Origin: a virus
Length of the DNA: 24,431 nucleotides
Direction: 5' to 3' (one strand)
Virus record (IMG/VR): IMGVR_UViG_3300023179_000499
Location: 1 to 24,431 of that record
The position numbers and the translations under genes were made by a program. Numbering within the stretch: the stretch's first letter is position 1; each line of letters starts with the position of its first letter. Shown here piece by piece: positions 1 to 22,500 of the stretch. A model generated the notes under the pieces. The model had not been told where the DNA came from. It searched no databases and saw only the letters and a list, made by a program, of their open reading frames with translations.

Positions 1-120
1 TCCACTTGATCCGCTAGTTCCTGAAGAACCGCTGGTTCCATTCGAACCAGAAGATCCACTAGTTCCGCTAGAACCTGAAGTGCCTGAAGATCCGCTTGTT
101 CCAGACTCTCCTTGAACACC
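1..120 (-). repeat. Collagen-like Gly-X-Y repeat, block 2 (open at left edge)
   Basis: Forty residues (915-954 of the fibre protein) form an unbroken Gly-X-Y series. It begins GVQGES and continues as mixed GTS/GSS triplets with one GSN, running off the window. The reading frame is intact and codons for Ser, Thr and Gly vary, so the repeat is kept at protein level. Such stretches form trimeric stalks in phage fibres. Confidence 0.9.
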
Positions 121-2862
121 TTCTAATTTTGCTATAATAATCCTACTTCCAGGATAATTAGTTTGAGAATTTATATTTTGAGAAGATGAATCATCATGCC
201 AAACATAAACCTGAATATAATCATTATTTTTCAGTATTATATTAGTAGAAAAAATTACTACAGGATTATCAGAAGTTGAAGTAGCTGGTATTACAGAATA
301 AGAATATCTTCCTTGAGAAGAAGATATATTTCCATTTTTTACTATGAATACAGATCTAGATGTTCCAGCAGTACCACCAGATGCCCAACCTATATATCCA
401 GCAATATTGAAAAATCCATCGTATCCTGATGTATTTGTAAATTTATTTGTTCCATCAAAAGTTAAACCTATAGAGCCTTGACTGTTATCTGTATCAGAAG
501 TATTCCAAGTTACTGCTGTATTTGTGCTTGCAGTTATACTTTGAGTAGTGTTATTATATCTAGCTAATGCAGAAATTATTGTTGCCGTTCCACTTGTTCC
601 TGAACTACCTGATGTACCAGAAGATCCCGAAGAACCAGAAGATCCAGAGGTTCCCGAAGATCCACTTGTTCCAGAGGTTCCGCTAGTTCCATTTAATGGC
701 GCAACTTCATACCCTCTAAAAGTTAAAACATTAGCTGTTGTAGAAGATAATGCAAATAATACGGGTTTAGAAATTTGACCAAATGTTGTAGGCTCAGTAG
801 GCGTTAATCCTCCAGCTACAGTTGGAGATAGAAAATAAACAGTTCCAGGCGTTAAACCTATTAAACCTTCTATTAATCCATCATATACCAATTTAAAAGT
901 ATTAGAATCAACAATATTTCTTACTATTCCTTGAACTTCAGCATGTTCAGCAGTGTCTGCTTGAGCTTTATACCAATTTGCTCCATCAAATCTAACGACA
1001 TCACCAACAATAAATCCATGACTAGCTTGAGTGAATTCATCAATCAAAGCTGTTCCATTGCCAGTATCTATTTGTTTTTTAACAATATTATTCTCAATTA
1101 CTAACTTATATAAATTTTCAGAAGTCGTGGTTGTTGGAAGTTCTGTAAATACTAAATTATTAGAACCGCTATAATATAATGTTCCTGTTGTTAAAGTATC
1201 TGAATCTGAAAATTTTGGTATATAATTACTAACCCCCGAACCATCAATAACTTTCTTGCCGCTTAATGCAGATAAATTTATGGCTTGATTTATATACCCA
1301 GAACTTATGAAAAAAGTATCAGAAAATTCTGATACGACTTCATCTGTATTTATCGCTCTTACTTTTACGAAGTAATTATTATCTTCTTTTATTGGAAAAA
1401 CAAAAGAAGGATTAACCGTTGAATACACAAAATCAGCAAAACCAGTTATTCTTTTTGCTATTTGTATACCAGTTACAAAATCTGCCAAATCATCAACACC
1501 AGTTGTAGAAGGTGTAAAATTATTTAAATATCTATCTATAGAATAAGTTCCAGTATAAATAGTTCCACTATAAAAACCCCCAGAAGGCAAGAAATTGAAA
1601 CCGCCATTTCCTGTATATCCGTAAGACAAGAAAATATCTTGATAATTAGAATTACCTGATGGAATTCTTATTTCTGTTATATAAGGAATTTGACTAGAAT
1701 TCGTTTGATAAGACCCAACTGGCAAAGATCCAAAATTATCTACATAAATCGTATGATCAGTCCATTGAATACCTGAAGATCCATAGTTAGAAAAAATATT
1801 TAAATTTCCAGAAATTCCAGTTCCTGTTCCATAAGCAATTGATAAAATATTTTTAGGAACGATGTTTTGCTCAAAAAAATCATAGATTTTTTTATTATTT
1901 CCGCTCTCTTCTACTGCAATATGAAAAACACAATCTTGAGATTGCGTTATTGAATTCCAAGTGAGAAACGCTTCTAAGTTTAAATTTTTATCTGTTTTAT
2001 TTAAACTAGAAGAAACGTAACCTGTTAAACCAGATATTATTGGTGGTAAAGTTGATAAATTATAAGAAAACGGTTTTATTCCTGAAGAAACTACTTTTTG
2101 ACCACTATAAAAATAACTATATGGTATTAGATGTACATAATATGGCTGACGAATATTATTATCAGCTACTAAAAATTGAGAACTAGATTGTAAATCAGGA
2201 ATAATTACACTATCAATATTTGTATTTTCATAAGATTGTGTAAAAAGATAATCATTAGAACTTGTATCAAAAGAAGATCCTGTTGTTACAAAAACATCTA
2301 AAGATTTGATAATTTTTCTGTTTTCGTAATTTAAATTTACTGTTACTTCATTATTTATATTATATCCAGATATAGAAACTTGAGGGGTTCCAAAATTTAT
2401 TAAAGCGCTTCCAGTGCTGGTTCTGCCCTGAATATCCGTGCTTACAATATCTATAAAAAACTGACTTAAATTATTTACATTTTGTTCTCCAGTGATATTA
2501 GAAAATAAATTTACTAAGTCACTATTATTTACTGAATAAGATGTGTTTAAAAAACTATCAGTAGAACTAAATATTAAATTACGATTTATATCATAAAAAT
2601 TAGTTATAAAACCTGAAAAACCAGCGTCTGTAACTATATCTGATATAATATCATTAGTAACTGGCCTAATAACCGACCAATCTAAAACAATTGAATTTTC
2701 CAATAAAAACCCACTAACAAATGGCGTATTGACATTTAAACCATATAAACTTGGAGATAAAGTAGTATTTACTGAAGAATCTATATTAGTAGTAACTAAA
2801 GTTATACTAGATACTTCGAACGCCTTATCATAATCAATTCCTGAATTTGGAATAAATGCCAT
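1..2862 (-). CDS. Tail fibre / J-continuation protein with FN3-like, collagen-like and C1q-like modules (3'-partial)
   Basis: This reading frame starts at ATG 2862-2860, 8 nt after the stop of the J-like gene. It stays open for 954 codons to base 1, so the C-terminus lies outside the window. Residues 1 to about 560 are Asn/Ser/Tyr-rich beta-sandwich-like segments resembling the FN3-type repeats that follow the core of lambda J. Around residues 605-724 there is a compact module (ASHGFIVGDVVRFDG..., LTPGTVYFLSPTVAGGL) that I recognise from other phage fibres. Residues 725-759 are Gly-(Thr/Ser)-Ser triplets. Residues 760-914 look like a C1q/TNF-type jelly roll, and residues 915-954 are Gly-X-Y triplets again. 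The protein is probably the distal host-binding fibre attached to the tail tip. The fold assignments are by eye; the family of the first 560 residues is uncertain. Confidence 0.85.
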   Translation of the reverse strand, partial: MAFIPNSGIDYDKAFEVSSITLVTTNIDSSVNTTLSPSLYGLNVNTPFVSGFLLENSIVLDWSVIRPVTNDIISDIVTDAGFSGFITNFYDINRNLIFSSTDSFLNTSYSVNNSDLVNLFSNITGEQNVNNLSQFFIDIVSTDIQGRTSTGSALINFGTPQVSISGYNINNEVTVNLNYENRKIIKSLDVFVTTGSSFDTSSNDYLFTQSYENTNIDSVIIPDLQSSSQFLVADNNIRQPYYVHLIPYSYFYSGQKVVSSGIKPFSYNLSTLPPIISGLTGYVSSSLNKTDKNLNLEAFLTWNSITQSQDCVFHIAVEESGNNKKIYDFFEQNIVPKNILSIAYGTGTGISGNLNIFSNYGSSGIQWTDHTIYVDNFGSLPVGSYQTNSSQIPYITEIRIPSGNSNYQDIFLSYGYTGNGGFNFLPSGGFYSGTIYTGTYSIDRYLNNFTPSTTGVDDLADFVTGIQIAKRITGFADFVYSTVNPSFVFPIKEDNNYFVKVRAINTDEVVSEFSDTFFISSGYINQAINLSALSGKKVIDGSGVSNYIPKFSDSDTLTTGTLYYSGSNNLVFTELPTTTTSENLYKLVIENNIVKKQIDTGNGTALIDEFTQASHGFIVGDVVRFDGANWYKAQADTAEHAEVQGIVRNIVDSNTFKLVYDGLIEGLIGLTPGTVYFLSPTVAGGLTPTEPTTFGQISKPVLFALSSTTANVLTFRGYEVAPLNGTSGTSGTSGSSGTSGSSGSSGSSGTSGSSGTSGTATIISALARYNNTTQSITASTNTAVTWNTSDTDNSQGSIGLTFDGTNKFTNTSGYDGFFNIAGYIGWASGGTAGTSRSVFIVKNGNISSSQGRYSYSVIPATSTSDNPVVIFSTNIILKNNDYIQVYVWHDDSSSQNINSQTNYPGSRIIIAKLEGVQGESGTSGSSGTSGSSGTSGSSGSNGTSGSSGTSGSSG
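121..585 (-). other. C1q/TNF-like globular domain between two collagen-like stalks
   Basis: Residues 760-914 of the fibre protein lie between the two Gly-X-Y blocks. The segment has the C1q-type order of features: an opening strand (ISALARYNN), a mid-domain GYDGFFNIAGYIGW strand comparable to the G-x-Y-x-F core strand, LKNNDYIQVYVWHDD comparable to the L-x-x-x-D-x-V strand, and a closing SRIIIAKLEG strand. C1q-like heads on collagen stalks form trimers. The assignment is by pattern only; another jelly-roll receptor-binding fold is possible. Confidence 0.55.
586..690 (-). repeat. Collagen-like Gly-(Thr/Ser)-Ser repeat, block 1
   Basis: Thirty-five residues (725-759) in which every third residue is Gly and the others are only Thr or Ser (GTSGTSGTSGSSG...). 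It sits between the upstream fibre module ending APLN and the C1q-like domain. Several codons are used for each residue, so this is a protein repeat and not a recent DNA-level expansion. Confidence 0.92.
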
Positions 2863-2870
2863 ATATTACT

Positions 2871-5800
2871 TTACACGTTGATCAGTTTTAAATTTTTATC
2901 AAAAGCATAAAAATCAATAAAATAGCTTGGACTATAATCTCTTGAAGAACTGGGCTTTTCACCTAAGAAAATGTTTATAAAACGGGCATCGCTTCTTAAG
3001 ATTTTAAACTTTAAAATTTTACCATTTCTAGTTATATTGCAAAGCAATCCATAAACAGATGGATTAGTCAAATAACTAAATAAATTAACAAAATTTATAC
3101 TAATTGATTGATACATCTTTAAATTATAATTGGCATTCAACACTTCATTTTCTATTATAAAAGAATAATCATAATTTGTATTGATAGATTGAATATAACT
3201 TATATCTAATGGAGGATTAGTTATATTTGCAGTTATTTGAGCATCTGTTAATGCGGAAGATACATAATCATCTGTAGAAAAAACTATTTGTTTTTGATTG
3301 TTTTGATTTGGATCTACATATTTATCGTCTTCAATTATTTTAAACTTTTCTTGATCATATTTAAGTGCAGAAATAGCATAATCATTTGCTGAATTCTCCG
3401 TAATACTGCTGATGCGATAAAGATTTTGTTTATCAATGTTTTCTTCTAGATAAATAGCAAAGTTTGCATCTGATCTTAAATTAGCATAATTACCATAAGT
3501 TTCATCTGGAAAAGATGTGTAATATAAATCTTTTACACTTGCATATATAGTTTTCATAGCAACTATTGCATATAATGGATTTTTATTAGTTCTACTATCT
3601 GTTTCTGTATATAACAAAACATTATTTTGGTAGAACTTAATATATTTGCCATCATAAGTTATCGAAAAAACATCAGTTATTTTAAAAACTCCAGAAGCAA
3701 CACTAGAAGCATCAATTTCAACAACAAAGGAAGCAGCGTTAAATCTAAAACGATAATATATATCTGTATAACTATTATTTATATTATTAATTTCTGAAAC
3801 ACCAACAGATGTTTCACTAGATACATCAGGGATCGAAAAACTAAGAGAACAATTATTAATATATGATTGATTGGTATAAGCTATTTTATTCCAATTTGAT
3901 GAAAAACTGCTAATAGCAGTTAATATTTTATTGTCAGAAGACGCTGTTATTCCAGATTTTAAAACCCAAGAAAAATACTTTTCACTTATTAATTTCAATC
4001 GCAAATTAATATTATCAATTTGTAGTATATAAAAAGATAATTCAATTGGCTCTCCCTGAACAACAGAAAATATTTTTATATTTTTGCCCAAAGAATCATC
4101 AGAAACCGGCCTGTCTATATAAATATAACTATTTTTGAAATCTAAAGAAGTTATTTTGCCATAACTTATATTTGATGTTTTTAAATAATCTGCGACTCTT
4201 ACAATATCTCCTATTTTTAATAAATTTGCTTCAACACCAGTCGTGAAACTAACAACTTCAGACTCTAGCTTTCCTGTCGCTAAAAACCATTTTCCTATTC
4301 TATTTGCTTGATATCTAGAAGTAACACCAAATCCAATAACTTCTTTTTCGATCAATCCGTATTTTTTTATTAAATCAGAATCCTCTACATATACCACTTT
4401 ATCTTTAAAGTTATCATTTTTATCCAGATAAGAGACTTTTACTATAGAAAATGAATTATTAAAATCACTAGATGTATATGTAAATAAACCATCTTTTACA
4501 TTTGAATTTGTAAATATATAACTAACAGGTCTAGAAACATCGCTACTTAAACTTAAGTAACCATTTTTAAAATAAAAAATACCTCTAAAAATCGACGATA
4601 AATCAGATAAAACTTTTAAACTTTCTGTTTCACTATTTAAAAATATATTAGCTGAAAATCTAGGTTCTAAGAAATCTCCAAAACCCTCTTGAGCAGCTAC
4701 GCATTTTCCTGATTTGATTTTCAAATCATAATCAAATATTCTAGCAGAACTATACTGTTGAGAAATTTCTTCTTCTGCGCTGTTATAAGTTAAAACTATA
4801 TTATCTGTTCTAGATATATAAGAAATCGCATATTTTTTAACTTTATCTTGTCTATTTAAAATAGATGGATTTCCTGAAACATATGACTGTAAAGCAGTAA
4901 AGAATCTTCCACTTTTATCAGATTCAATGAAAGTACGAGGACCAAAATCATTATAAAGTTTTATTTTAGCTGTATAAGTTCCAGTTACCGTTGCCGATAC
5001 AATAATTTTTTTATAATTAGTATTTATGTTTTCATCAAACTGATCTTTTATATCATATAAAAATAATAAGGAACCTGTTGGATATTCTAAAGATAATTGA
5101 GTTTGATTTATAGCTGTAGCTCTAGTAATCGTTATTGTATTATAATCTACAGAATTTATATCAATTAAATTATTATCATAAGTAAAATCATCTGAAGGAT
5201 ATTTTGTTGAAGAATTTGTTTTTACAAGCTCATCGCAATACTTAGAAATTTTCAAAAGCTCCCATTTATTTAAATCATTTTCATTAAAGAATGTTTTAGC
5301 TAAACCATATCTAGAGTTAACACACAAATCATAAAATACCCAAGCTGGATTATCAGACCATTTTAGAGTTTTACTGAAATTACCAGTCCAGTCACCATAA
5401 TATTCTCTAGCTTCACAATCATAATTATCTGGTACTCTTATTTTTAACAATTTACAGTCATAACTTCTTACTGGTATCGATCCAAAATGTTTTGCGCTTA
5501 CTTTGTTTCTGCACAATACAGAATATGGATTTGAAAAACCATAATTGACCTGTTCAATAACAGAATCAACTGAAAAATTTCTTGATGCATTTCCTGCATT
5601 TTTTAACTCTTGAATTGCGCTTATTCTCTGTTGAACGCTATATACACTTAAAATAAATTCAGCAAAAGGATTGTTAGCTCTATCTTCATCAGAAATTTCT
5701 AAAACTATTGGAATAATAATAGGTGTAGATTTAACTACAAAATATCCTTGAAAGTATAAATATGTTGTTTTTCTCGTTTGAGGATTATTTAAAGCTACGA

Positions 5801-6425
5801 CAAATCTTATATAATTACTATAGGTTTCACCTTTTCCTCCAATATAATACAATAAATCGATAGAAATATTTAATATTAAAGTTGTTGTGTATTTATTTTT
5901 AACATAATGAGTAAAACAACGAGCTTTTTCTTTTAATGAAATTAATTTTTTATGAAAATCATTATTAACAATCTCAGTAGAGCTTTCATAAAAAGTCTGA
6001 GTATCATAATTTTTTGTTATATCAAAATTTAAAGCTGGATCTCCTTCTAAATCATAAACTCTACTCTTGTATTCATATAAAGAACTAGCATTCAAATCAG
6101 AATTTTTAATTGAGTTCCCTAAAAATAAACTGAAATCAGAAGAAGTTACATTGAATAAATTACTTCTACTATCTTTAACTGAAACATCATTATAATAAAC
6201 CCCATAAGCTAAAGAAGAATTTGCAGAATTAATTAAATTAGCTGAAGAATTATTTAGCGTTATATAATTAACAGTATTACCATTAGAGTCAGTTAACCCT
6301 TCTATTGGACCTTCACTTAGCATATCTACAGACTCATAAAACGATTCTGAATCTATTGTCGCATTATTACTTCCAGCAGCAATGCTTAAAATATCACCTG
6401 TATCTTTTTGAACGTATATATTCAT
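2871..6425 (-). CDS. Tail tip attachment protein, lambda gpJ-like
   Basis: The 1184-residue central tail-tip protein closes the distal tail and carries host specificity. The N-terminus has the J-type opening (residues 30-50, SEGPIEGLTDSNG). The strongest hallmark is near residues 345-400: a W-x-G...W-S-D-N-P-A-W-V-F-Y-D-L run followed by SRYGLA and later KYCDELV, which is typical of the J family. Residues about 822-974 look like an inserted concanavalin-A-like lectin domain (YDGKYIKFYQNNVLLYTE). The last ~110 residues look FN3-like. The start ATG overlaps the stop of the upstream TapI gene by 1 nt (TAATG), suggesting coupled translation. At 1184 aa it has a length similar to lambda J, but the following gene appears to carry further J-type repeats. 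Confidence 0.93.
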   Translation of the reverse strand: MNIYVQKDTGDILSIAAGSNNATIDSESFYESVDMLSEGPIEGLTDSNGNTVNYITLNNSSANLINSANSSLAYGVYYNDVSVKDSRSNLFNVTSSDFSLFLGNSIKNSDLNASSLYEYKSRVYDLEGDPALNFDITKNYDTQTFYESSTEIVNNDFHKKLISLKEKARCFTHYVKNKYTTTLILNISIDLLYYIGGKGETYSNYIRFVVALNNPQTRKTTYLYFQGYFVVKSTPIIIPIVLEISDEDRANNPFAEFILSVYSVQQRISAIQELKNAGNASRNFSVDSVIEQVNYGFSNPYSVLCRNKVSAKHFGSIPVRSYDCKLLKIRVPDNYDCEAREYYGDWTGNFSKTLKWSDNPAWVFYDLCVNSRYGLAKTFFNENDLNKWELLKISKYCDELVKTNSSTKYPSDDFTYDNNLIDINSVDYNTITITRATAINQTQLSLEYPTGSLLFLYDIKDQFDENINTNYKKIIVSATVTGTYTAKIKLYNDFGPRTFIESDKSGRFFTALQSYVSGNPSILNRQDKVKKYAISYISRTDNIVLTYNSAEEEISQQYSSARIFDYDLKIKSGKCVAAQEGFGDFLEPRFSANIFLNSETESLKVLSDLSSIFRGIFYFKNGYLSLSSDVSRPVSYIFTNSNVKDGLFTYTSSDFNNSFSIVKVSYLDKNDNFKDKVVYVEDSDLIKKYGLIEKEVIGFGVTSRYQANRIGKWFLATGKLESEVVSFTTGVEANLLKIGDIVRVADYLKTSNISYGKITSLDFKNSYIYIDRPVSDDSLGKNIKIFSVVQGEPIELSFYILQIDNINLRLKLISEKYFSWVLKSGITASSDNKILTAISSFSSNWNKIAYTNQSYINNCSLSFSIPDVSSETSVGVSEINNINNSYTDIYYRFRFNAASFVVEIDASSVASGVFKITDVFSITYDGKYIKFYQNNVLLYTETDSRTNKNPLYAIVAMKTIYASVKDLYYTSFPDETYGNYANLRSDANFAIYLEENIDKQNLYRISSITENSANDYAISALKYDQEKFKIIEDDKYVDPNQNNQKQIVFSTDDYVSSALTDAQITANITNPPLDISYIQSINTNYDYSFIIENEVLNANYNLKMYQSISINFVNLFSYLTNPSVYGLLCNITRNGKILKFKILRSDARFINIFLGEKPSSSRDYSPSYFIDFYAFDKNLKLINV
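3505..3960 (-). other. Concanavalin-A-like domain inside the J-like protein
   Basis: J residues about 822-974. The segment has the rhythm of ConA/SPRY-like lectin sandwiches: a start with a W-x-K turn after SSFSSNW, a middle SYTDIYYRFRFN strand, then VFSITYDGKYIKFYQNN VLLYTE, where an aliphatic-x-x-D-G-x-x-aliphatic-x-F/Y-x-x-N strand pair precedes LLYT. Phage tail proteins often carry such domains for glycan binding. Boundaries are approximate. Confidence 0.55.
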
Positions 6426-6931
6426 TATGAAGCTATTCTATTTGTATTATATAAATAATTAGAAATAACTACCGATCCAATTTTTAATCTTCCATAGCCA
6501 ATAGGAATAGACACGTTTCTTTTAGTAACATTTTCATATCCAGAAAATAATTTAGAATTATTTTTTATATCTTTTGGTGTTTTTGGTGATAATAATTTTG
6601 TTATTAACAATTGAATACCTGTAGAAATAGCCATTATAATTAAAGAAACTAAAAGAGTTATACCAAAATCAGATCCCAAGACCAAAGGAACTACTTCGAT
6701 TTTTGAATTTTTATTTAAAATTGGAGAATTCAAATAGTCTGGAGACATTATTTTGCCATCTACATAAATCAAAAAATGAGATATATATTCTTCCAAAACT
6801 CCTAGAGTTTTAATTAATTTTCCACTATTAGCTTCAATAGCGTCAAAAGCTTCAGAAACAGTTTTAACATTCAAAGTCCATTCTGTTTTTATAAAATTTT
6901 CAAAAATTCCATATAGTTTTATGTTAACCAT
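6425..6931 (-). CDS. Tail assembly protein, lambda gpI-like (TapI, ubiquitin-like N-terminus)
   Basis: A 168-residue protein in three parts. Residues 1-83 resemble the beta-grasp (ubiquitin-like) domain of phage TapI proteins, including the strand-turn pattern of KLYG and the closing NSKIEVVPLVLG. Residues 89-112 form one strongly hydrophobic segment (ITLLVSLIIMAISTGIQLL). The C-terminus, residues 129-157, has FSGYENVT and SIPIGYGRLKIGSVVIS, the family signature with the PIP-x-x-YGR and GS-x-V-I-S elements. It lies between the JAMM gene (4-nt gap) and J (1-nt overlap), exactly the lambda K-I-J order. gpI is needed for tail-tip assembly and is generally absent from, or processed in, the finished tail. 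Confidence 0.9.
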   Translation of the reverse strand: MVNIKLYGIFENFIKTEWTLNVKTVSEAFDAIEANSGKLIKTLGVLEEYISHFLIYVDGKIMSPDYLNSPILNKNSKIEVVPLVLGSDFGITLLVSLIIMAISTGIQLLITKLLSPKTPKDIKNNSKLFSGYENVTKRNVSIPIGYGRLKIGSVVISNYLYNTNRIAS

Positions 6932-6935
6932 ATAA

Positions 6936-7265
6936 TTATTTACACTTCATTTCTTTGAAAAGATCGTTTTTAACGTCATACATAAGCATATTTAAATTAT
7001 GATATTTCTGATATTGAAAGTCAGTTTTTGAAAAATCTCCGCCATTTGGATGACTATGAAACAAATAAACTATTCTAAACTTATTTTTTATATCTAAATA
7101 GTCTCTAGGCGACATCAAAAAATTATTTTCTTTATTTGGATGCTTATTTTCTATTTGAATAAATTTGTATACATTATTATCTTCTACAACAAAACCACAA
7201 ATTTCAAATTTACTATTTTTATTGCACAAGATTTTAATTTGATTTAATAAATCATTTTTTAGCAT
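6936..7265 (-). CDS. JAMM/Mov34-type metallopeptidase, N-terminal half of lambda gpK
   Basis: I place the start at ATG 7265, giving 109 residues and a 14-nt overlap with the upstream gpL-like gene. ATGs at 7274 and 7301 are in frame but extend the overlap. E21 lies in FEICGFVVE, the usual Glu-x-Cys-Gly strand. The metal motif is H70-S-H72-P followed by S79 and D82. ENKHPNKENNFLMSPRDYLDI is the conserved middle part, in which substrate-side residues precede the metal motif. The NlpC/P60 half that is fused in lambda gpK is missing, and no separate NlpC/P60 gene is visible. The neighbour encodes a ubiquitin-like protein, the known JAB/ubiquitin-like pairing of phage tail modules, in which the peptidase may trim the ubiquitin-like partner. 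Between the second His and Ser there are six residues, one fewer than usual. Confidence 0.88.
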   Translation of the reverse strand: MLKNDLLNQIKILCNKNSKFEICGFVVEDNNVYKFIQIENKHPNKENNFLMSPRDYLDIKNKFRIVYLFHSHPNGGDFSKTDFQYQKYHNLNMLMYDVKNDLFKEMKCK

Positions 7266-8349
7266 CGTTATCATAAGGATAAGTTGCTGGAAAAGCTCCA
7301 AAAGGTAAAGACGTTCTAGAGTTATTCGCAGACGTTTTATTATCTTGAAATCTTAATAAACACCCATTAAGAGTTTTAGAACATTTATCTTGCTTCCAAA
7401 CATCGGTATTCTCTAATGGATTTTTATTTAATACCCCATCTTGCAAACATACAAAAAAAGTTTTTGGACTATTTAACGGTATTATTAAAGAAGGCTCTTC
7501 ATCTAAATCTATACTTGGCAATGGATCTACAAAAACAAAATCTCCTTTAGAATAATTTCTTGTTGACGACCATTCTCCTTTATAAGTTAAAGATGTTAAA
7601 TTATAAGAATTATTACTTAAATTTGTTTTATATCCAGCTAAAAAAGTTTTATCGTTTTGATCAGCAACTGGAAGACCTATGTTACTAGTTATTCCAGGAT
7701 AAGAAGGTGTAGACGATACAGAGTCTTTCCACGCTGTTTGAAAAAAATATAATGCATTAGCAGCATCTCCAGATCCATTTTTTATAATTGGACCTGCATA
7801 GTCAGAAGTGTTTCCATAATTACATCCATAACAACGATAATTCCATCCGCAAGTATCATTTGTTACTTTTCTGGCTGGAACATTTAAATTTTGCACATCA
7901 ATTTTTGTCGAAAGCTCCAATTCAATTTCTTGCTTATTTTCACTTTTTTTCAAATTTATTATTAATTTGTCAAATGCTACATAAGTATTGAAACTAGAAG
8001 TTCCATAAGGATTGATTCCATCAGTAAAATTTGCAACATCTAAATCTTTAGCTAAAATCTTTTTTCTATAAAACTTTTTTCCTATAAGATTATTTCTATC
8101 GGCTAAGATTTTAGAAAAATAATTATTAATATTTGCAATCTTTAGAGTTGGTCTACTTTGTCTTCCATCAGAACTTTTTTGAAAAGATGAGAATTCACAA
8201 GGCAAAAAAGAATATTCATTGCCTTGAAAAATTATATTTTTAGAAAAATTCTTAGATCCATGAAATCTTAGAAATCCTTCATTAGGATCTAATTCTATCT
8301 CATATAAATCTAATATTAGATAATTATTTAATTTAAAAAGAGTATTCAT
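7252..8349 (-). CDS. Minor tail protein, lambda gpL-like, with inserted carbohydrate-binding-like module
   Basis: A 365-residue tail-tip protein. The N-terminal half follows the gpL pattern: NEYSFLPCEF, SRPTLKIANI, NNLIGKKFYRKK, and a long strand run IELELSTKIDVQNLNVPARK. Then come C167 and C176 (eight residues between them; C173 also lies here) and C323 and C330 (six residues between them). The end has GCLLRF and LPFGAFP. gpL-family proteins are known to bind an iron-sulphur cluster through four Cys near the C-terminus. Here about 146 residues separate the two Cys pairs, against roughly 20 in lambda. The insert contains YKGEWSSTRNYSKGDFVFV...TFFVCLQ...DVWKQ, which resembles CBM5/12-type chitin-binding modules. 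A 1-nt gap separates it from the upstream gene. Confidence 0.88.
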   Translation of the reverse strand: MNTLFKLNNYLILDLYEIELDPNEGFLRFHGSKNFSKNIIFQGNEYSFLPCEFSSFQKSSDGRQSRPTLKIANINNYFSKILADRNNLIGKKFYRKKILAKDLDVANFTDGINPYGTSSFNTYVAFDKLIINLKKSENKQEIELELSTKIDVQNLNVPARKVTNDTCGWNYRCYGCNYGNTSDYAGPIIKNGSGDAANALYFFQTAWKDSVSSTPSYPGITSNIGLPVADQNDKTFLAGYKTNLSNNSYNLTSLTYKGEWSSTRNYSKGDFVFVDPLPSIDLDEEPSLIIPLNSPKTFFVCLQDGVLNKNPLENTDVWKQDKCSKTLNGCLLRFQDNKTSANNSRTSLPFGAFPATYPYDNDAKK

Positions 8350-8350
8350 A

Positions 8351-11032
8351 TCAAGAAGCGTTTGATGATGTTCCAGCTATATTAAAGATATTTGGCAATC
8401 TAAAGGTTTTACTTCTTATATCGTAAGTAGAAGAGGTTTCTCCAGTAAATAATTTAAAATATGCATCTATAAAATAATTATTTATATTAATTTGTTCGCT
8501 ATCTATCAAAAGTCTATTGTAACAGACAATATCAAAAAAAGAAACTTTAAGACTTGACAAATCATTTATCAATTTAAAAGTAGTATCTTTAATGTCATTT
8601 ATTAACAAAGATGAAGATTTACTCGTTTCTGGCGCTAAAGCCAATAGATCATAATTAGTTAACAAAACTCCATTTATAAAAATCGAATAAAAAGTTTTTG
8701 AACGTTTTATATTTATTATTACTGGATAATAAGTTTGATTAGATGCGTTTAAACTTTTAGAAACTTGAGCAAAATTAGTTCTTATAATATTAGTCTTATC
8801 ATAAATAAAAAAATTAGCAGAAGTATCATTTTTTATTACAGCGTCAAATAATGGAGTTAAAAACGATTGAAAAACATTAGGCTCTTTTGAATAATAATTA
8901 TAAGAACTTATCGGATATTTCGTATACAAAAGATGTTTAGATGAAACGTTTTCCGCTGTCTTATACCAATCTAAAAATTTAAAAGATGTAGGTGCAGCAG
9001 CCAATGTATTAAAAGGTGTCGCTACTTGTTCTATCGAAGCTACTATATATAAATCAAAATCACTACATAAAATAGAATCAGTAAATATTGTTGATAAAGA
9101 TTGATTTGTTAAAGTTAAAGCTTTATATCCAAAACTCTTATAATCTGGATCATATGCAGCTGTTCCAGTCATGGTATAAGATCCTCCAACCCAACTTGGA
9201 GTATTTGAAATACCACTATTAGGAAATCTAAATATGTAATCAGATGGTAAATTTTTATTATATATATTTAATAAAACAGAAGAATTTAAAAATGAAGTTA
9301 TCAAATTACCACAAAGTTGATTTGTAACTATTTCATTTACTGGTTTAAATCTAGCTACAAATAAATTACCTTGATTATAATCAAAAGGATTTATGCTACT
9401 TACATCTTTATCTACATCATTAAAAGAATTAGGTTTTCCTTTTGAATCTGTATTTGTAAAATTAGTGTTTGGATTTAAATAATAAACTACGGTTTGCGAT
9501 CCAGATTCTCCGCGACCAACTTGAGGAGAAAACCAATAACCTATTGTTTGTGTTTGATTGCTGTTTATTTGGGTTGTATTTGTATTAGGATAAGATGAGT
9601 AAACTAAATCAAATTTAGTATTAAAAGAATTAGCGGCCCCTTGTATAGGAAAATTGCCATTTTGATATACATAATCATTTCCTCTGCCACCTAAACCATT
9701 TTTAGTCATTACAACTCCAGCTTTAGAACCTCCTCCTCCAGACTGCAAAGAGCTTTTATTTTGTATATACAGATTATATTTTATATCAGAAACAGGATTT
9801 TGATTATTCAAACTTGTTTTTGCAGTAAGTTTTAATACATTTCCTCCATTTTTTGAATCAGAAAAAGTATTGTTATTATAATTATTTATAGTTTGAGCAA
9901 TTAAGCTTGACCAATCACGACCAAAAGGACTATAACTGTTTAAATTTTGATTTATTATTTGACCGCCTCTGCCTTGATAACCAATTAAACTAGTTGTTTG
10001 TGGAATATAAATATTTACTATTGTATCACCACCAGTATTTCCAGTAAAATTTTGAAATGTACCTTCTAATTGCAACGCATATTTATCGCTATCTGTTGAA
10101 TAAAAATTACTATCTTCTGGCAAATATATATCTATAGAATTATAATAACTTAAGTCTGGATTGCCATAATTAGCATCTACTATATATTTAAATAAGTCAA
10201 AATTTTGTATATCATATCCTTGTTTTAAATTAACTACTAAAGGCCCTCTTGAAAATTTTATATTTTCAGGAGTTCCACTATAACCACTAACAACTTCATT
10301 TGATAACTGAGTGCTTATAGAATCTACTCCTGTCGCATAAATACTTATTCCACTATGATTTACAGACATAGTATACATTCTTGCATAATAATCAGTCTCT
10401 ATAGCAAATGGATAATCTACAGAAGAAATGTTTAAATAATTTAAATTTTGATCTGTACCATAGAAATTTCCATAAATAGGAAAAGAATTCGTATTATTTG
10501 AAACGTTAATACTCTTAGAAAAAACAGTTGAAGCAGCAAAATTCAAGCCAGTAGAAATATCTAAAACATAACCTGTAAAAAAATAATTATTCAAATTCTC
10601 TGTTCCTGTTGGAACTGACCAATAAAAATCATAATTTAATTTATTTTTTGAATCATAATTTCTTACTGCTTTAAAAGATCTAACATAGCCTCCAGTTATG
10701 TCTATAATTTTATTTCCTGTTATTTCTAATGTAATACTTCCACTTGGATCTGTAGATCCATCTTCAGTTGATTCACTATTTATTGTAATTATTGTTGATT
10801 GTGTTCCAGAAGGCGAAGAAATAGTTGGAATATAATATATATCTACATTGCCATAATCACTACTATCTAATAATAAAGAAGATTGAGATAACGCAAAATT
10901 TGCATCATTACTATTATCAAATGTATATTGAACTTGTGAATTTCCACTATTATATATATTTAATGGATAAGAAACAGCAAAACCAGTTAAACATTGTCCT
11001 ATATTTTTACCAGTTGTATTAACGTAAGTCAT
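8351..11032 (-). CDS. Large tail protein with Ig-like N-terminus and LamG/ConA-like C-terminus
   Basis: An 893-residue protein with no lambda counterpart, lying between the M-like and L-like genes. Residues 1-112 look like an Ig-like beta sandwich (LNIYNSGNSQVQYTF and SGSITLEITGNKI). Residues 113 to about 330 contain further strand-rich, FN3-like sequence. Residues about 335-480 are Gly/Asn/Ser-rich (GYQGRGGQI, SGGGGSKAG, GLGGRGNDYVYQNG), perhaps a fibrous region. Residues about 580-870 look like a LamG/ConA-type lectin domain, ending in a SFFDIVCYNRLLIDSEQ-type strand and helix that also closes the lectin domain of the neighbouring 670-aa protein. It starts with an ATGA overlap. A receptor-binding or tip-decoration role is inferred from domains and position only. 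Confidence 0.75.
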   Translation of the reverse strand: MTYVNTTGKNIGQCLTGFAVSYPLNIYNSGNSQVQYTFDNSNDANFALSQSSLLLDSSDYGNVDIYYIPTISSPSGTQSTIITINSESTEDGSTDPSGSITLEITGNKIIDITGGYVRSFKAVRNYDSKNKLNYDFYWSVPTGTENLNNYFFTGYVLDISTGLNFAASTVFSKSINVSNNTNSFPIYGNFYGTDQNLNYLNISSVDYPFAIETDYYARMYTMSVNHSGISIYATGVDSISTQLSNEVVSGYSGTPENIKFSRGPLVVNLKQGYDIQNFDLFKYIVDANYGNPDLSYYNSIDIYLPEDSNFYSTDSDKYALQLEGTFQNFTGNTGGDTIVNIYIPQTTSLIGYQGRGGQIINQNLNSYSPFGRDWSSLIAQTINNYNNNTFSDSKNGGNVLKLTAKTSLNNQNPVSDIKYNLYIQNKSSLQSGGGGSKAGVVMTKNGLGGRGNDYVYQNGNFPIQGAANSFNTKFDLVYSSYPNTNTTQINSNQTQTIGYWFSPQVGRGESGSQTVVYYLNPNTNFTNTDSKGKPNSFNDVDKDVSSINPFDYNQGNLFVARFKPVNEIVTNQLCGNLITSFLNSSVLLNIYNKNLPSDYIFRFPNSGISNTPSWVGGSYTMTGTAAYDPDYKSFGYKALTLTNQSLSTIFTDSILCSDFDLYIVASIEQVATPFNTLAAAPTSFKFLDWYKTAENVSSKHLLYTKYPISSYNYYSKEPNVFQSFLTPLFDAVIKNDTSANFFIYDKTNIIRTNFAQVSKSLNASNQTYYPVIINIKRSKTFYSIFINGVLLTNYDLLALAPETSKSSSLLINDIKDTTFKLINDLSSLKVSFFDIVCYNRLLIDSEQININNYFIDAYFKLFTGETSSTYDIRSKTFRLPNIFNIAGTSSNAS

Positions 11033-13041
11033 AGTGAAATTAATGTATTGAAATATATATCGGATGAAGTTAAACCTTTAAATTCTAAAAGCTTTACTGA
11101 AATATCATGATTGTTATAGAATTTATATGTATGATTCCATTCAGGACAATAAACATTTATCGTCTTATTATAAGGGTCTGGTAAATCTATTTCAAAAATC
11201 TTAAAACCAGCTTTATTATCTAAAAATTTTAATATCGCTAACGCTTCCTTATCAGATCTGTTAGAAAAATTCAAATTGAAATCTAGAACAGTCTTGTTAA
11301 TTCCATCGTTTTCATAAACTGGCGCTGTCATTGCATATTCAGTTTTAACATATCTTGGATTAACTGGAATTTGAAAATTTAAATCAGGTTTAAAATAAAA
11401 TTTTCTTGTAAATAAACTATTTACTCCTGTTGGATTTTCATCTATGCTTACAATTTTATTATCAGTTCCAGTATACCAATAATAATCTTCTAATAAAGAG
11501 CTTGTTGTTTTAAAGAATGATACATCATCTTTAAAATATGCTTTATTTTGATCGAACAGTCTTGTCACATTATCACCAGTAACTAAAAATCCTTTATAAT
11601 CTAAATTAGAATCATAAGGTGAATTACAAGTTATTGTAATTGTATTTAAGTTAGCTTCTTTAGAAGAATAATCTAAAGAATTAAAATATATCTTAGCATT
11701 ATTTTTATATGGATAAAATAAATCAATATCTACAGACTGATAAGAATCTATTAATCCAATAGGTTCATACTCAAAAGTATTTTGAAAAAATCCAATTAAA
11801 CATTTTGACTGGATATCCGTTAAACCATCATAAACTAATTTAAAATCACTTGTTAAATTATTAATATTAGAAACTACATTTGTATAATAACCATCACCAT
11901 ATTGCATCTTTGAAGCTTTAGTGGCAAAATTCGCAGAACATCCATATGTTTTATTGAAAATAGAATCTATATTTTTAGTTAAATATCTTGATCCTGTTAT
12001 ATTAATAGGTGCGTATGAGTAGTCGGAAGAAGTAAAATCTTGATTAGCCATGTAAAGGCCATCATCATTCATGAAATGTTTTTCAAATAAATATTTTTCT
12101 ATCTGTAATATTTGTTCATCTGTAGGGGTTTTAGAATATCCAATTATTTCATAATAAGAAATAGCGGAAGCATCGTAATTCCATATGTTATTTGCTCCAA
12201 CATGACCGTTTCCAGCAGTTCCTATTCTAAGCCCAGCAGCACCACTATAAAAATAATTACTTGTCAAGTTCAGCAATTCGCAACCATTATTTCTTAATTT
12301 AAAATTATTTGTTGTATTATTTTTTATAATTGAAACTATGCTTTTCTTTTTTAATAATTTAGATGCCGAGAATGATGAATTAATGGGTGGAGGAGAAACT
12401 ATTCCATTTGAAGTAATAGTATCTATTATGAATTGTTGAGCTTCTTTAGGTACACTTGTATTCCAAGAGTATTCAATATTATTTCCATAAACCATCAATG
12501 CCCCACTAGTAACGTATGCATTTGCAGAATCTGTATTTATAATTGTAGAGTAATTTGGATAAATTACTCCATAAGGACTGCCAGCATCATAATTAAATAA
12601 TCCATTTTTTAAATCATCGTATTCAAATACCACAAACCAACATCTGTCTCCAGTTAAAAAACCAGAAAAATTTTGTGTTGTATATAATTGATTATACGAG
12701 AAAATTTCACCTAAAGATCTTTGGCAAACTACAGAATTTCTATTTGAATCGTATGTTGGTCTAGAATCTAAAGCAACAGTTGCATCTACATTTACTAAAT
12801 TCTGTTCTGAAAATCCTGGAGCAGAATTATACCATAAAGATATTTTACCAGAACCATCAAACTCAATATTATTAAGCGTATCCAAATTGAACCAAGCATA
12901 TAGACCAGATAAATTTGCTGGATATACAGAATTTCCAGTATAAAATTCATAATCAACTAAATCATACTGATCATAATTTTGATTAATATCAAAATCTTTA
13001 ATTCCTGTAATAGAAAATTGTGTATTTAAAAATTCGCTCAT
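11029..13041 (-). CDS. Lectin-like domain fused to lambda gpM-like minor tail protein
   Basis: A 670-residue fusion. Residues about 45-327 look like a concanavalin-A/LamG-type domain. They start LSGLYAWFNLD, pass LWYNSAPG and DSRPTYDSN, and end YYEIIGYSKTPTDEQ with an amphipathic helix. The C-terminus, residues about 560-655, matches the gpM / minor-tail pattern: TVLDFNLNFSNRSDKEALAI, LKFLDNKAGFKIFEI, and CPEWNHTYKFYNN, which precede the closing strands. Residues about 385-500 look like a second, weaker copy (NLTSDFKLVYDGL, then CLIGFFQNTF). The order places it where lambda has gpM, between tape measure and gpL, but with adhesion genes on both sides. ATGA overlaps join it to both neighbours. 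Confidence 0.8.
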   Translation of the reverse strand: MSEFLNTQFSITGIKDFDINQNYDQYDLVDYEFYTGNSVYPANLSGLYAWFNLDTLNNIEFDGSGKISLWYNSAPGFSEQNLVNVDATVALDSRPTYDSNRNSVVCQRSLGEIFSYNQLYTTQNFSGFLTGDRCWFVVFEYDDLKNGLFNYDAGSPYGVIYPNYSTIINTDSANAYVTSGALMVYGNNIEYSWNTSVPKEAQQFIIDTITSNGIVSPPPINSSFSASKLLKKKSIVSIIKNNTTNNFKLRNNGCELLNLTSNYFYSGAAGLRIGTAGNGHVGANNIWNYDASAISYYEIIGYSKTPTDEQILQIEKYLFEKHFMNDDGLYMANQDFTSSDYSYAPINITGSRYLTKNIDSIFNKTYGCSANFATKASKMQYGDGYYTNVVSNINNLTSDFKLVYDGLTDIQSKCLIGFFQNTFEYEPIGLIDSYQSVDIDLFYPYKNNAKIYFNSLDYSSKEANLNTITITCNSPYDSNLDYKGFLVTGDNVTRLFDQNKAYFKDDVSFFKTTSSLLEDYYWYTGTDNKIVSIDENPTGVNSLFTRKFYFKPDLNFQIPVNPRYVKTEYAMTAPVYENDGINKTVLDFNLNFSNRSDKEALAILKFLDNKAGFKIFEIDLPDPYNKTINVYCPEWNHTYKFYNNHDISVKLLEFKGLTSSDIYFNTLISL

Positions 13042-16593: not shown

Positions 16594-19500
16594 TTATCCT
16601 TGGCGTGTTCCAGCTAAACTTCCACCAAATCTTTGTTCATTTTTAATAGCATCTAATACTACCGCATAAACTTTACTATTCAAATTCTTAGATAATGCAA
16701 CATCTTGTTGAGCATAACTTGTAGAATTAGATCCAACTTCAATTGTCCCATCTCTACTAACATTAGTATTGAAATTGAATGAGTTAGTAGCATTCGTAGT
16801 GTTAACAACATTAGAATTACTATTTGATATTGGCGACATACCTCCAGCTTGCATACCAACACCATATCTCTTAACTATAGGAGTATTATACAATCCACCC
16901 TCCATATAACCTGGAATTGTATCAGATAAACGCGAACCAATTAATCCGCCTGTCTGTTTTCTATCGCTAGCGAAAGGTGGCGCATATGGATTAGGACCAT
17001 AAATACTTGAACTATAAAAAGGTTTTGAAGTAAAACTTCTAAAACCAGTTTGAGCTTGTGGACCAGCATATTGACCATATTGATTTATAAATCCTGCTTT
17101 TTGAAAATTTTCATAAGCTGATACTTCTGCTTTGGTTAAATTAACTGGACCCTGAGCTTTTATCGCCAAAGATTCTGCTTTTTTAGCTTGTGCGTTTTGC
17201 GAGAAATTTGACATTCCTTGAGCTAACCCTATTGAAGCTACAGCAGCTACAACTGATCCAATCATTGCTGCTCTTTGTTGTTTTCTAGCAAAAGCTTTTC
17301 TTCTGCGCTCTTCAGCGGCGGCTACTTCTGCATCTCTTAATTCATTATAAAGCTTACTATTTTCCATTCCATAGCTCGTCATATTATCTTCCATAGATTT
17401 TAAATCTGTAAATTCATTACTGAATGAACCTCCAGAAGCAAAACGAGGAGCCATACTAAAATTAAGAGTATCTAAAGCAGATGGCCCACCCATCGCCATT
17501 ACTGCTCTTCTATTTAATACATATTCACCATTCTCAAGCAATGCTGGATATTTATCTCCTGAACCGCTTCCAGAAATATACATACCAGTTTGAGCGCGAA
17601 TATATCCACCTTTTTGATTACCATTTAAACCTTGAGCTACACCATCAAATCCTCCTATACCACTTATAATATTACGAACACTAGCTCTCATTAGTGTTGT
17701 ACTTATTTCATCTAAAAATTTAGCAGCTATGCCCATCAAAGCATCGCCCAAATTATCTGACTCCCTGATGGCAGCTTTTATTCCATCAACTAAACCATCA
17801 GCAAACATTCCTGGTAAATTTCTGCCTAATTGATCAACCATTTCATCAGCTTCTTTATTCAAATTTTTGAAACCAATTTGCATATTATTAACAAAACCAG
17901 CAGATTGTTCAAAATCTTTACGGGTTTGTGCTACTTTTGCTGCAAAAATATCAGCCTTAGAGCCAAGTTGTTGACTTGCATTACTAAGATCTTGTATTGT
18001 ATTATCTATTGCATTTATAGTTGACTGATCTTTTCCGGTTCTTTCAGATTTTAATTTATCAATAGCTTGTTCAATAGACATGTTATCTGTTACTCCAAAA
18101 TCTTTTAATTCTTTATAAGATAATACATTTTTTCTTTCATTGAATGATTTTCTTAATAAACTATTATTAGATTTTATATCTGCTACCTGTTCAGCTTTTT
18201 TAGAGAAATTCGATAAAGCTAAATTAAATTCTGGAGTACCAGCAGTTGTTTTTTCTATATCTTGTAAATAAGGTTGCAATTGCTGATCAGCTATAATATC
18301 TACTAATCCCAAAACAGCTTCTGTGTTAGCATTTTGAGCTTGCGTGTTTGCGTCCTGAGCTGCTATTTCAATAATAGATTTTCTTGCATCGAAAATCGCT
18401 TGTTTTTTTGCCATTTGTTGCTCATCTTTGAAAATTGACTGCTGATCAGCTTGTTGAGCCTCAAAAGTAGCTCTTTTATTTAATCCTAAATATCGAAACT
18501 CACTTCCAATATCAATTCTTTTTAATTCTAATTTTTCATCTGCAATTATTTTAAAAGCTTCCGAATCTTTTCTTAGCTTTAAAGTTGCATCTCTTTGAGC
18601 ATAAGTTATTTTTAATTTTTCTTTTTCAAGATCTAATTGCTTTATTCCTACTTCATAATTTATCTTATTGTTAATTCTAGATAAATCTATCTCTTCTTGT
18701 TTTAATTTAAGCTCTTGATTATATTCTTGAACTTTATCTCTAAAAGCTCTTTGATTTTCTTCTAAAGTTTTCGCTAAAACACTTGCAGAATCAGAAGATA
18801 AACCCAAACTGCCAGCAAAAGTTTCAAATTCTTTTCTTGTTCTAGTCACAGAAGTGGACAAATAGCTAGTTATCGATGCAATAGTATCTGGACTTCTTTG
18901 CACACCTCCCGAATTAAATATTGTTTCTCTACTTTGATTTAAATATGAAGATCTAGCTTCAATATTTTTAAGAGATGTAGACTTTCGTGTCTGCTCTATT
19001 AATCTAGAAAGTTGAGCTTCTTCAAATTGTTTATTATAAGTTAACTGAGATGCTTTCAAACTTATTGCAGCAACCTCAGATAAATTGCCAGAAATAGAAG
19101 AATAAATAGAATCATTTATTTCTTTCATTTTTCCAGAAATTAAATTTATTAAAGAAGTATCAAATCTATATTTATTTAAAGCATCAGTGGCTGCAATTAA
19201 AGAATCAGATAATGTTTGAGATATTTCTTTTTTAAATTTTATAAAATCATTAGAAAGTTGATCGGAAACTGTTTTATTAGCCGTATCTTGTTTTACTTTT
19301 TGAGCATTTATTTTTAGCAATCTTGATAAATATCTTATCAAATAATCTCCAATTTCATTTGTATCTTCTTCAAGTATATCAAAGCGTTCAGCTAAACGAT
19401 CAGCCAATCCCTGAGAAATATTATTGTCTGTCAAAAATTTAGATATTCTTTCTCTATCAAAAGACGCTTTTCCCTTTTCTTCTCTAACCATCTCTTGAAA

Positions 19501-22500
19501 CTGTTTAGCTTTGTCTTCGGTTAAAATACTCAAATCTTCAAAAGTTTGTTTAAAATCATTTAAAATTTTCTCATCATTTTCTTTTGAATATTCTAAATAA
19601 GTATAATCAGATACAAGAGCTGGGCCTTTAATAGTTTTTGTTTTATTATAACCTAATTCAGATAATTTTTTTGCGTTTTTAGCTTTTACTCCTTCAGCAG
19701 CAAGTACATCTTCTTCAGCTTCTTTTTGAGTTTTTTTTCTGCCTTTTTCGTATTCATACAATGCTTCGCCTAATTTTTGAACATCTGTGCCTGTTTGTTT
19801 AAATATTTTTTGCAATTCAACATCTTTTATATTATTAAAATTATCAGCTAAAGAATCACTAGCTCTTTTTATTATTTCTGGATCAGTAGATGTATTTAAA
19901 GTCTTTAATGTATCTATATACATTTGTGCTGTAGATACATTTTCTTGAGTTTTCGATTTATATTCATCTGCTACTTGACGCAATTCATCTGCACTCAACG
20001 ATGCTGCGCCTAAAGATTGAGCCAAGCCCACAGCCGCTCCAGCAGCAAGACCAATTGCTGCTCCCCAAGGACCAAAAGCTGCTCCTAATGATGCGCCAGT
20101 TGAAGCAGCAGTTAATCCTGTACTTAATCCTGCCTGAACCTTACGCTCTGTTTCAGACATATCCATTCTTCTTCTATTTCCAAAAACCGATTGTTCAATT
20201 AATCCAGCAGCCATTGGACCAGCAAAAGCTAAAGTTGTGCTGGATTTTTCTAAACTTTTTGCTAATTTACTTTGTTGACCGGAAATATCTTTACGAGCTT
20301 TTTCCATTGCATCGCTTAAAGCCGCTCCAGACACGCCTCCTTTAGACAAAGAACCTTCTAATTTTTTTAATCCATTATTTATTAATTTTGTTCTTCCTCC
20401 AAAAGCGCTTTCAAAAACACCTAATTGTTCATCTGCCGATTGAACTGAATTTATGAAATTAGAAATAGCTTTGTCAATATCATCTTGATTAAATAAAGCA
20501 TTAGTTGCAGCAGTTGAAGGTGCAAATGTTGTACTTACTTGTTGCGATACATTTGGATTTCCAGAAGGATACCAAGTAGATGATGTTGAAGACGTTCCAG
20601 ACGGCATGTATGGATAACTTGAACCAAAATTGACAAAATTAGGAATAAAACCTCCACTCATCAATCCAGCAGCTTTTTGCCCTCTCATTGAATCACTCAA
20701 TGCATTACTTAAACCACCATGATCAGCGATTGCGGAACTAAATGTTGGTTGACTGCTATTTCTAATATGTGGGAAAGGTTTTGTATCGAAGATAGCTTTA
20801 TTTCCGCTCATGCTTTCTTCTAAGCCCATTACTGCTTGTTTATAAGCGAAATTAGGAATAAAACCTGATGCTGAATTCAAAATCATTTTCTTACTTGCAG
20901 CGTTATATGTCCAACGCCCCATCTTATCGTACATGGCTTTATTATTTTTATAATCGCCATAGAAAATTCCTTGTTCTTTGTATTTTTTCAATTTCTCCAT
21001 TTCGCCAAGATTTTGAAGATTAGAAACACCAGCCAAATCAGATCTTAAAGCTGCATAATTTGCGCCTCTCACACCTTCAGCACCTTGACGATAATCACTT
21101 AATTTAACCCTTGTTCCAATGTATTGATTTTTAGCAAGCCAATCATTATAAGCTTTTTTCAATAAAGCTGTCTTGGGTCTAATTTTTTCTTTATCTTCAT
21201 ATTTACCGCTTTCAGAAAGTGATTTCAAATCTTCCCAAGCAGATTTAGTTTCTGGATTACTAGACCAAAAAACTCCTAAAACATCTGAGAGTCGATCATA
21301 GTTAACTCTCTTCATTCTTCCAGAAACTTGACCGGTATATACTGAATTTGGATTAAAGACGTATCTTGAATTTCCAAACGCTTCGCTCATCATTCCTCTT
21401 TCCATACCAAGCGACTTGGTTTTCCCTGCGCTTGATAGTCTCAAAGCTGCAACTCTAGCAGAATTTTCAGCATAAGCGTTAACATCATCTGTTAATTTTG
21501 GATTTATATAAGAAGTATCAGGTATAAAAACATTATTACCTAATATGGACATTACCATATTATTCAACTGCTCTTTTAATTGATATCCATATGATTTAAA
21601 ACCGGGTTGTCTATAAACAGTACCACTTAATCCAGTTCCTCCTTCTTTAGAAAAAGGCTCACCAAAACCAGTTTTTGTTCTAAAAAATTTAGTATTAATT
21701 TCTTTTCCAGCAAAATTAGGAATAAAACCACTTGCAGCAGCCATTGCTAAAAACGCAGGATTTTTTACATAGCTATTTAATAAATTATTTGTTTCTGCGG
21801 ACAATCCTTTTACAAGATCAGGGCTATTCTTGACCATTTGAGAATAACTCACACCAGCTAAAGGACTAAAAAGTTTTTTACCTAATTCTGAAGTTATTTG
21901 ATTTTCATGACCTACTTCATTAAAAGCAATAATTAATTCTTTTAGTTTTGCGGCTGCTGCGGGATTAGTCTTAGATAGTGTTTCATATTTTCTTGTCAAT
22001 TCTCCAGTAATGCTTCCAGTTAAATTCTTTTTTGGGTAACCTTTGTATTCTATACCTACACCAGCTTCTTTTAATGCAGCATCAAATGCTGATTGTTTTT
22101 GATTTGTTTTTGGTTGCAATACATAACCTCTTATTAAATCGTCTTTTACATCTTGTTGAGAAACTAATTGCATTGCTTTAAATGCAAAATCCTCAAACAA
22201 TGGAGCAAATATATTATTATCTCCTTTTTCATCTGCGCCTTCAGCAGTGCTTTTAAAATTTATTTGTCTGAAAGTTTCTGTATCACTTGCTTTAGATATT
22301 CCTAAAGCAGGTTGAATAGTATCAAAAGCAGGATTACCAAATTTTTTAAACCAAGGAATTCTTATCGCACTTGTAGGAGGAGCAAAATTAGGAATGAAAC
22401 CACCACTTAAATTTACTCTATCTTTATAGTAATGAAGAAGAATTTTTTGATTCATTGCTTTCTGCATTTCTTCACGACTTAAACCTTTTAAGAATTCACT

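Follow-up and report, generated by a model that had tools for sequence, protein, structure and literature searches.

A lambda gpL-type tail-tip protein with a probable CBM5/12-fold module between its iron-sulphur cysteine pairs

Hub proteins with a domain between iron-sulphur segments

Two described hub proteins, gp13 of RcGTA (PDB ID: 6tba) and vBDshSR4C_014 of R4C (PDB ID: 8gtc), carry a separate domain between the segments that bear their Fe-S cysteines. In the RcGTA hub, the iron-binding domain is composed of segments 143-167 and 250-263, with an oligosaccharide-binding domain (168-249) lying between them (PMC7296036). The corresponding segments of the R4C hub are 142-161 and 244-266, flanking an oligosaccharide-binding domain at 162-243 (PMC10276861), and its sequence places the cysteines at 147/157 and 244/251, with a gap of 86 residues. 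The lambda gpL protein likewise contains a cluster (Tam et al., 2013, as cited in PMC10721106), the first-pair ligands of which are C173 and C182, and what the Fe-S cluster does in tail tips of the gpL type is not known (PMC10721106). Furthermore, the evolved Dit and Tal proteins of siphophages bear CBMs in loops, some of which were shown to bind hosts (PMC7291167).

Herein, we describe a gpL-type protein encoded within the IMG/VR virus record IMGVR_UViG_3300023179_000499, the 24,431 nucleotides of which (positions 1 to 24,431) are hereafter referred to as the window. Its features are summarized in Table 1.

Table 1. Features of the window gpL and the evidence on which they were assigned.
Feature	Position in the window	Strand	Evidence
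gpL-type tail-tip (hub) protein, 365 aa	7252..8349	-	Pfam, PHROG, NCBIfam, phmmer
N-terminal HDI (tail-tube-like) domain, residues 1-160	7870..8349	-	VIA match to lambda gpL
First Fe-S cysteine pair C167/C176, with C173 between	7822..7851	-	Alignment, conservation
Variable linker, residues 188-224 (12-44 aa in relatives)	7678..7788	-	26% mean identity, 38% gaps
Retained gpL loop motif GLPVADQNDK, residues 225-234	7648..7677	-	HK629 alignment
Probable CBM5/12-like beta module, residues 252-322	7384..7596	-	AlphaFold2 strands, VIA, hhalign
Hypervariable loop, residues 276-293, between module strands 2 and 3	7471..7524	-	28% mean identity, pLDDT <50
C301, module cysteine	7447..7449	-	60/60 clade members; hhalign register
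Second Fe-S cysteine pair C323/C330	7360..7383	-	Alignment, conservation

The gpL-type protein and its enlarged cysteine gap

The protein matched Pfam Phage_tail_L (E = 3.8e-35; 121.5 bits against a cut-off of 25), PHROG 18 (E = 1.5e-46) and NCBIfam TIGR01600 (113 bits against a cut-off of 70.75), and a phmmer search matched it to lambda gpL (8iyk_L, E = 6e-15). It is thus a minor tail protein of the lambda gpL type (PF05100/TIGR01600). In the VIA comparison, residues 5-157 were superposed on 8iyk_L with a Z of 16.0 and an rmsd of 3.5 over 148 aligned residues, and the N-terminal region thus has the HDI fold. Homologues of gpM (11029-13041), gpI (6425-6931) and gpJ (2871-6425) are encoded on the same (minus) strand, the gpK position (6936-7301, minus strand) is occupied by the JAB-domain part of gpK, and the M, L, K, I and J homologues stand in lambda order. 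Between gpM and gpL lies an extra ORF of 893 aa (8351-11032, minus strand) that matched no family.

Several further observations were made on the neighbouring genes. A counterpart of the extra ORF, 888 aa long, occupies the same place in the record of locus L068, which also contains, at G007:C1:36365-52091, two giant adjoining ORFs of 2809 and 2424 aa, the second starting with NNTAMGFYSL-type repeats. In the gpM homologue of the window, the family domain is confined to residues 547-650 of 670, preceded by an N-terminal extension of about 540 residues that is also present in a relative. The ORF at the gpK position consists of the JAB-type domain alone and lacks the NlpC/P60 peptidase part found in lambda-type gpK. 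The tape measure protein (16594-24375, minus strand) contains several GFIPNFA-like repeats, and the fibre ORF (1-2862, minus strand), which runs off the record, carries collagen-like GTSGSSG repeats. No RNA families were found in the window.

The window gpL contains seven Cys residues, at positions 51, 167, 173, 176, 301, 323 and 330. In an alignment with isolated phages, C167, C176, C323 and C330 fell on the lambda-type [4Fe-4S] ligand quartet, and all four were invariant in the 60 distinct members of the clade. Between C176 and C323 lie 146 residues (positions 7380-7825 encode residues 176-323), whereas the gap was 21-22 residues in 228 distinct gpL proteins in which both pairs were found; these came from four unrelated groups collected from IMG/VR with Acinetobacter, Burkholderia, Escherichia mEp515 and cyanophage KBS-S-2A proteins as seeds, which makes up a wide, though not exhaustive, sample of gpL. 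The gap spanned 120-157 residues in 56 distinct relatives of the window gpL, and the insert is thus fixed in this clade of uncultured phages. The short loop between the pairs, which the window gpL lacks, is a usual trait of the family and not a criterion of membership. None of the isolated phages gave a match covering 80% of the window gpL query, the insert alone matched no isolated-phage sequence at E values up to 10, and no prophage or host relative was encoded in the bacterial genomes searched. An alignment of all gpL types yielded no usable conserved stretch.

Other forms of gpL were also encountered. The protein of Prochlorococcus phage MED4-184 (L097:7980-8552; 190 aa) ends directly after the HDI domain, and it and 59 distinct related proteins (L107-L186) are devoid of the entire Fe-S cysteine domain. 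The KBS-S-2A gpL relatives (L192:1004-1903, L219, L254, L257, L261 and L263) carry a 65-aa insert after the second Cys pair, which showed a weak ASH/Ig-like match and marks a second insertion place in gpL. In Acinetobacter-type gpL (L300:1001-1804 and about 30 similar loci), the N-terminal HDI domain is 36 aa longer. Candidates for further insertions in PF05100 or PF09356 proteins are the BFVD entries A0A218MK99 (522 aa), A0A7T5QUL0 (435 aa) and A0A6J5N8N2, the last of which is annotated ChiA1_BD.

Compared with lambda gpL, phi80 gpL and their relatives, the window gpL shares the HDI domain, the four Fe-S Cys residues spaced by 9 and 7, and a VADExDQ-type loop motif, whereas those proteins have the short gap throughout our sample and no inserted module. 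With the RcGTA and R4C hubs it shares an HDI/attachment domain, four Fe-S Cys residues in two segments, and a separate domain (of about 82 residues in theirs) between these segments. In contrast, those hubs belong to other sequence families, PF09931 and PF09356, which the R4C hub matched with 150 and 86 bits and the window gpL did not match at all; their inserted domain is named after the LKA1 gp49 insertion domain and not after CBM5/12; and the R4C gap is 86 residues against 146. These results agree with the first-pass annotation of this DNA in its assignment of the protein to gpL, in its pairing of C167/C176 and C323/C330, and in its estimate of about 146 residues between the pairs in place of the usual 20 or so. 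Its remark that no such case had been described was mistaken, since RcGTA (PMC7296036) and R4C (PMC10276861) carry a domain between the same Fe-S segments, and the architecture is therefore already described. What is new here is the fold of the inserted domain, its presence in the lambda-type (PF05100) family, and the clade-conserved C173 and C301; the open-licence papers searched describe no PF05100 protein with a CBM5/12-like module in its Fe-S loop.

Make-up, predicted fold and conservation of the insert

Part of the usual gpL loop is still present in the gap: GLPVADQNDK of the window aligned with GPAVADEYDQ from HK629, a phage of the lambda type. The added sequence therefore falls into two pieces, a variable linker preceding this motif and a module following it. 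Within the motif, G225, P227, A229, D230, N232 and K234 were invariant in the 60 clade members. An initial AlphaFold2 model, based on 23 close sequences, was of low overall quality (mean pLDDT 49.6). The second, based on 68 sequences, reached a mean pLDDT of 69, with about 85 in the HDI domain and 82-93 in much of the module; it is unreliable at residues 153-182 (pLDDT <50), which cover the first Fe-S segment. The module strands were predicted at residues 255-259, 270-274, 297-301 and 318-320, in CBM5/12 order. In the VIA comparison of the second model, residues 252-322 matched residues 134-184 of 8kec_a (Z 7.2, rmsd 1.0 over 50 residues, 22% identity), and the first model reproduced the match to this chain (Z 7.4, rmsd 1.2 over 51 residues), Z values of about 7 being graded as middling by the tool. 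Structures of CBM5/12 such as 1ed7 were absent among the VIA matches listed, which were filled by the HDI domain, so that their absence excludes nothing.

Chain a of 8kec comprises 279 residues and, from this length and the published domain limits, is presumably gp33, the short tail fibre of cyanophage A-1(L), with the matched stretch falling in its joint domain (residues 111-215), which anchors the fibre to the baseplate wedge (PMC10966104). The matched stretch, RGAYSATETYLYGEMVSYFGKNY...P...W, displays a CBM5/12-like residue order, and the joint stretch gave a partial Pfam CBM_5_12 match of 13.9 bits, similar to that of the best gpL relative (14.0 bits). The profile comparison of the module with gp33 was weak, as 2-3 of 200 permutations reached its score. 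The gp33 joint domain resembles the predicted fold of the module (rmsd 1.0-1.2 over 50-51 residues, within residues 134-185 of gp33), and differs from it in sitting in a fibre and serving as a wedge anchor (PMC10966104).

The relation to CBM5/12 was further assessed by profile comparison, using as reference four CBM5/12 stretches taken from PDB matches to the chitin-binding domain of ChiA1 (query confirmed as 1ed7). In hhalign, the insert profile scored 23.7, the best of 200 column permutations being 18.2, and strands 1-2 scored 22.7 against a maximum of 14.6, with none of the 200 permutations reaching the score; strands 3-4 alone did not rise above chance (133 of 200). In this register, C301 aligned with the Cys of YKCLQ in the ChiA1 domain. 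The module shares with CBM5/12 modules (ChiA1, 1ed7) the strand 1-2 motif and the order W, Y, GD, V, YxC, P, W, whereas it has a variable loop of about 18 residues between strands 2 and 3, lacks the binding Trp, and lies below the Pfam threshold: CBM_5_12 (PF02839) gave no match in the window gpL at the curated cut-off of 26.2, and the best match in a gpL relative covered 14 of 44 positions, which is noise level. Searching the insert against PDB sequences returned nothing beyond MORN-repeat and other chance matches. When an HMM of the module was run against all ORFs of the loci collected, full matches were confined to gpL. In a PF02839 scan of 14 related records, the best match in the window, at positions 940-1011 within the fibre ORF (15 bits), was partial and judged spurious.

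The W-Y-GD-x-V and (F/Y)xVC pattern, which is followed by P and W, together with the above-permutation score of strands 1-2, would suit a genuine CBM5/12 with chitin-like or GlcNAc polymers as its ligands. Trp687 of ChiA1 is important for chitin binding. However, the profile alignment showed the Trp687 position to be deleted or occupied by Lys (NKxP/GKFP) in all 56 sequences, and the partial Pfam match of 14 bits against 26.2 was no better than the apparent false positive in the fibre. A carbohydrate-binding module of this kind is therefore unlikely. The strand match suggested that residues 252-322 are likely related in fold to CBM5/12, and the loss of the Trp687 position makes chitin binding by the module unlikely. 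With regard to the CBM5/12-like insert that had been proposed at first reading, its fold was supported as a likely one, on the two AlphaFold2 models compared with 8kec_a and on hhalign strands 1-2, whereas the carbohydrate binding ascribed to it was not supported, considering the 14 of 44 positions matched, the missing chitin-binding Trp, and the nearest solved match, which by residue numbers belongs to a joint domain.

Among the 60 distinct clade members, the module residues Y266, F271, K296, C301, P311, N314 and W318 were invariant, W260 and G269 were present in 58, and C173 was present in 59, the remaining member having it one position away. Identity to the window averaged 84% over both Fe-S segments, 72% over the HDI domain and 60-62% over the module strands; for the linker and loop 276-293 it was 26-28%. 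The invariance of the Cys and module residues in 60 members indicated that the insert is a conserved protein and not an assembly artefact, and the persistence of the module core across relatives down to 57-58% identity indicated that the module is under selection. The latter observation also bears on the idea that a surface loop tolerant of insertions expanded neutrally and has no binding role. This idea would be in line with the poor conservation of the linker and loop 276-293 and with the existence of other gpL groups having inserts elsewhere or lacking the Fe-S domain, but it hardly fits an invariant core and is, in our judgement, the least credible of the readings considered here.

Possible role of the module at the tail tip

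Instead of contacting the host surface, the module could be a docking piece that binds another tip protein, such as the 893-aa protein, the extended gpM or a side fibre. Such a role would be consistent with the best solved fold match falling, by residue numbers, in the gp33 joint domain, with strands that are, unlike a host-range module, conserved at a level not far from that of the HDI domain, with the absent chitin-binding Trp, and with the large extra tip ORFs (888 and 667 aa) kept in the L068 record. A fold match carries no function, however, and the variable loop 276-293 and the linker could face a changing host surface, so that we regard docking as plausible but somewhat doubtful. Host contact is slightly favoured over docking by analogy with the evolved Dit/Tal proteins and with the proposal made for RcGTA/R4C. 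The evolved Dit/Tal proteins resemble the window gpL in bearing binding-type modules in loops of tail-tip proteins (PMC7291167), and differ in that they are different tip proteins, with different CBM folds and no Fe-S loop.

We thus propose, with middling confidence, that the window gpL is a hub carrying a CBM5/12-fold module outward in its Fe-S loop, most likely as an accessory contact to the host surface. By analogy with lambda, three copies of gpL would build the last ring of the tail via their HDI domains, with the Fe-S domain lying on the outside of the tip and the loop that joins the Cys pairs directed outward. In that loop, a small beta module of the CBM5/12 fold would have been gained by a lambda gpL-type hub. 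The cluster, provided that it forms, would act as a staple closing both ends of the stem of the module, and the tip would thereby bear three outward modules. These would most likely serve as accessory contacts as the tip settles on the host surface, possibly through weak glycan or envelope binding, a role likened to that of the evolved Dit/Tal decorations and of the RcGTA/R4C loop domain. It is conceivable, though very unlikely, that C173 and C301 additionally tie the module to the Fe-S site, either by forming a disulphide or by serving as alternative ligands, with the state of the cluster controlling where the module lies or whether it is exposed in the course of infection.

The occurrence of different domains between the same Cys pairs in two separate hub families suggested an outward insertion site in this loop, with the cluster serving to hold the ends of the loop together. 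As the loop length is otherwise fixed in the sampled lambda-type family, the clade described here offers a clean natural comparison, and the idea of loop stapling would be testable with a small soluble protein.
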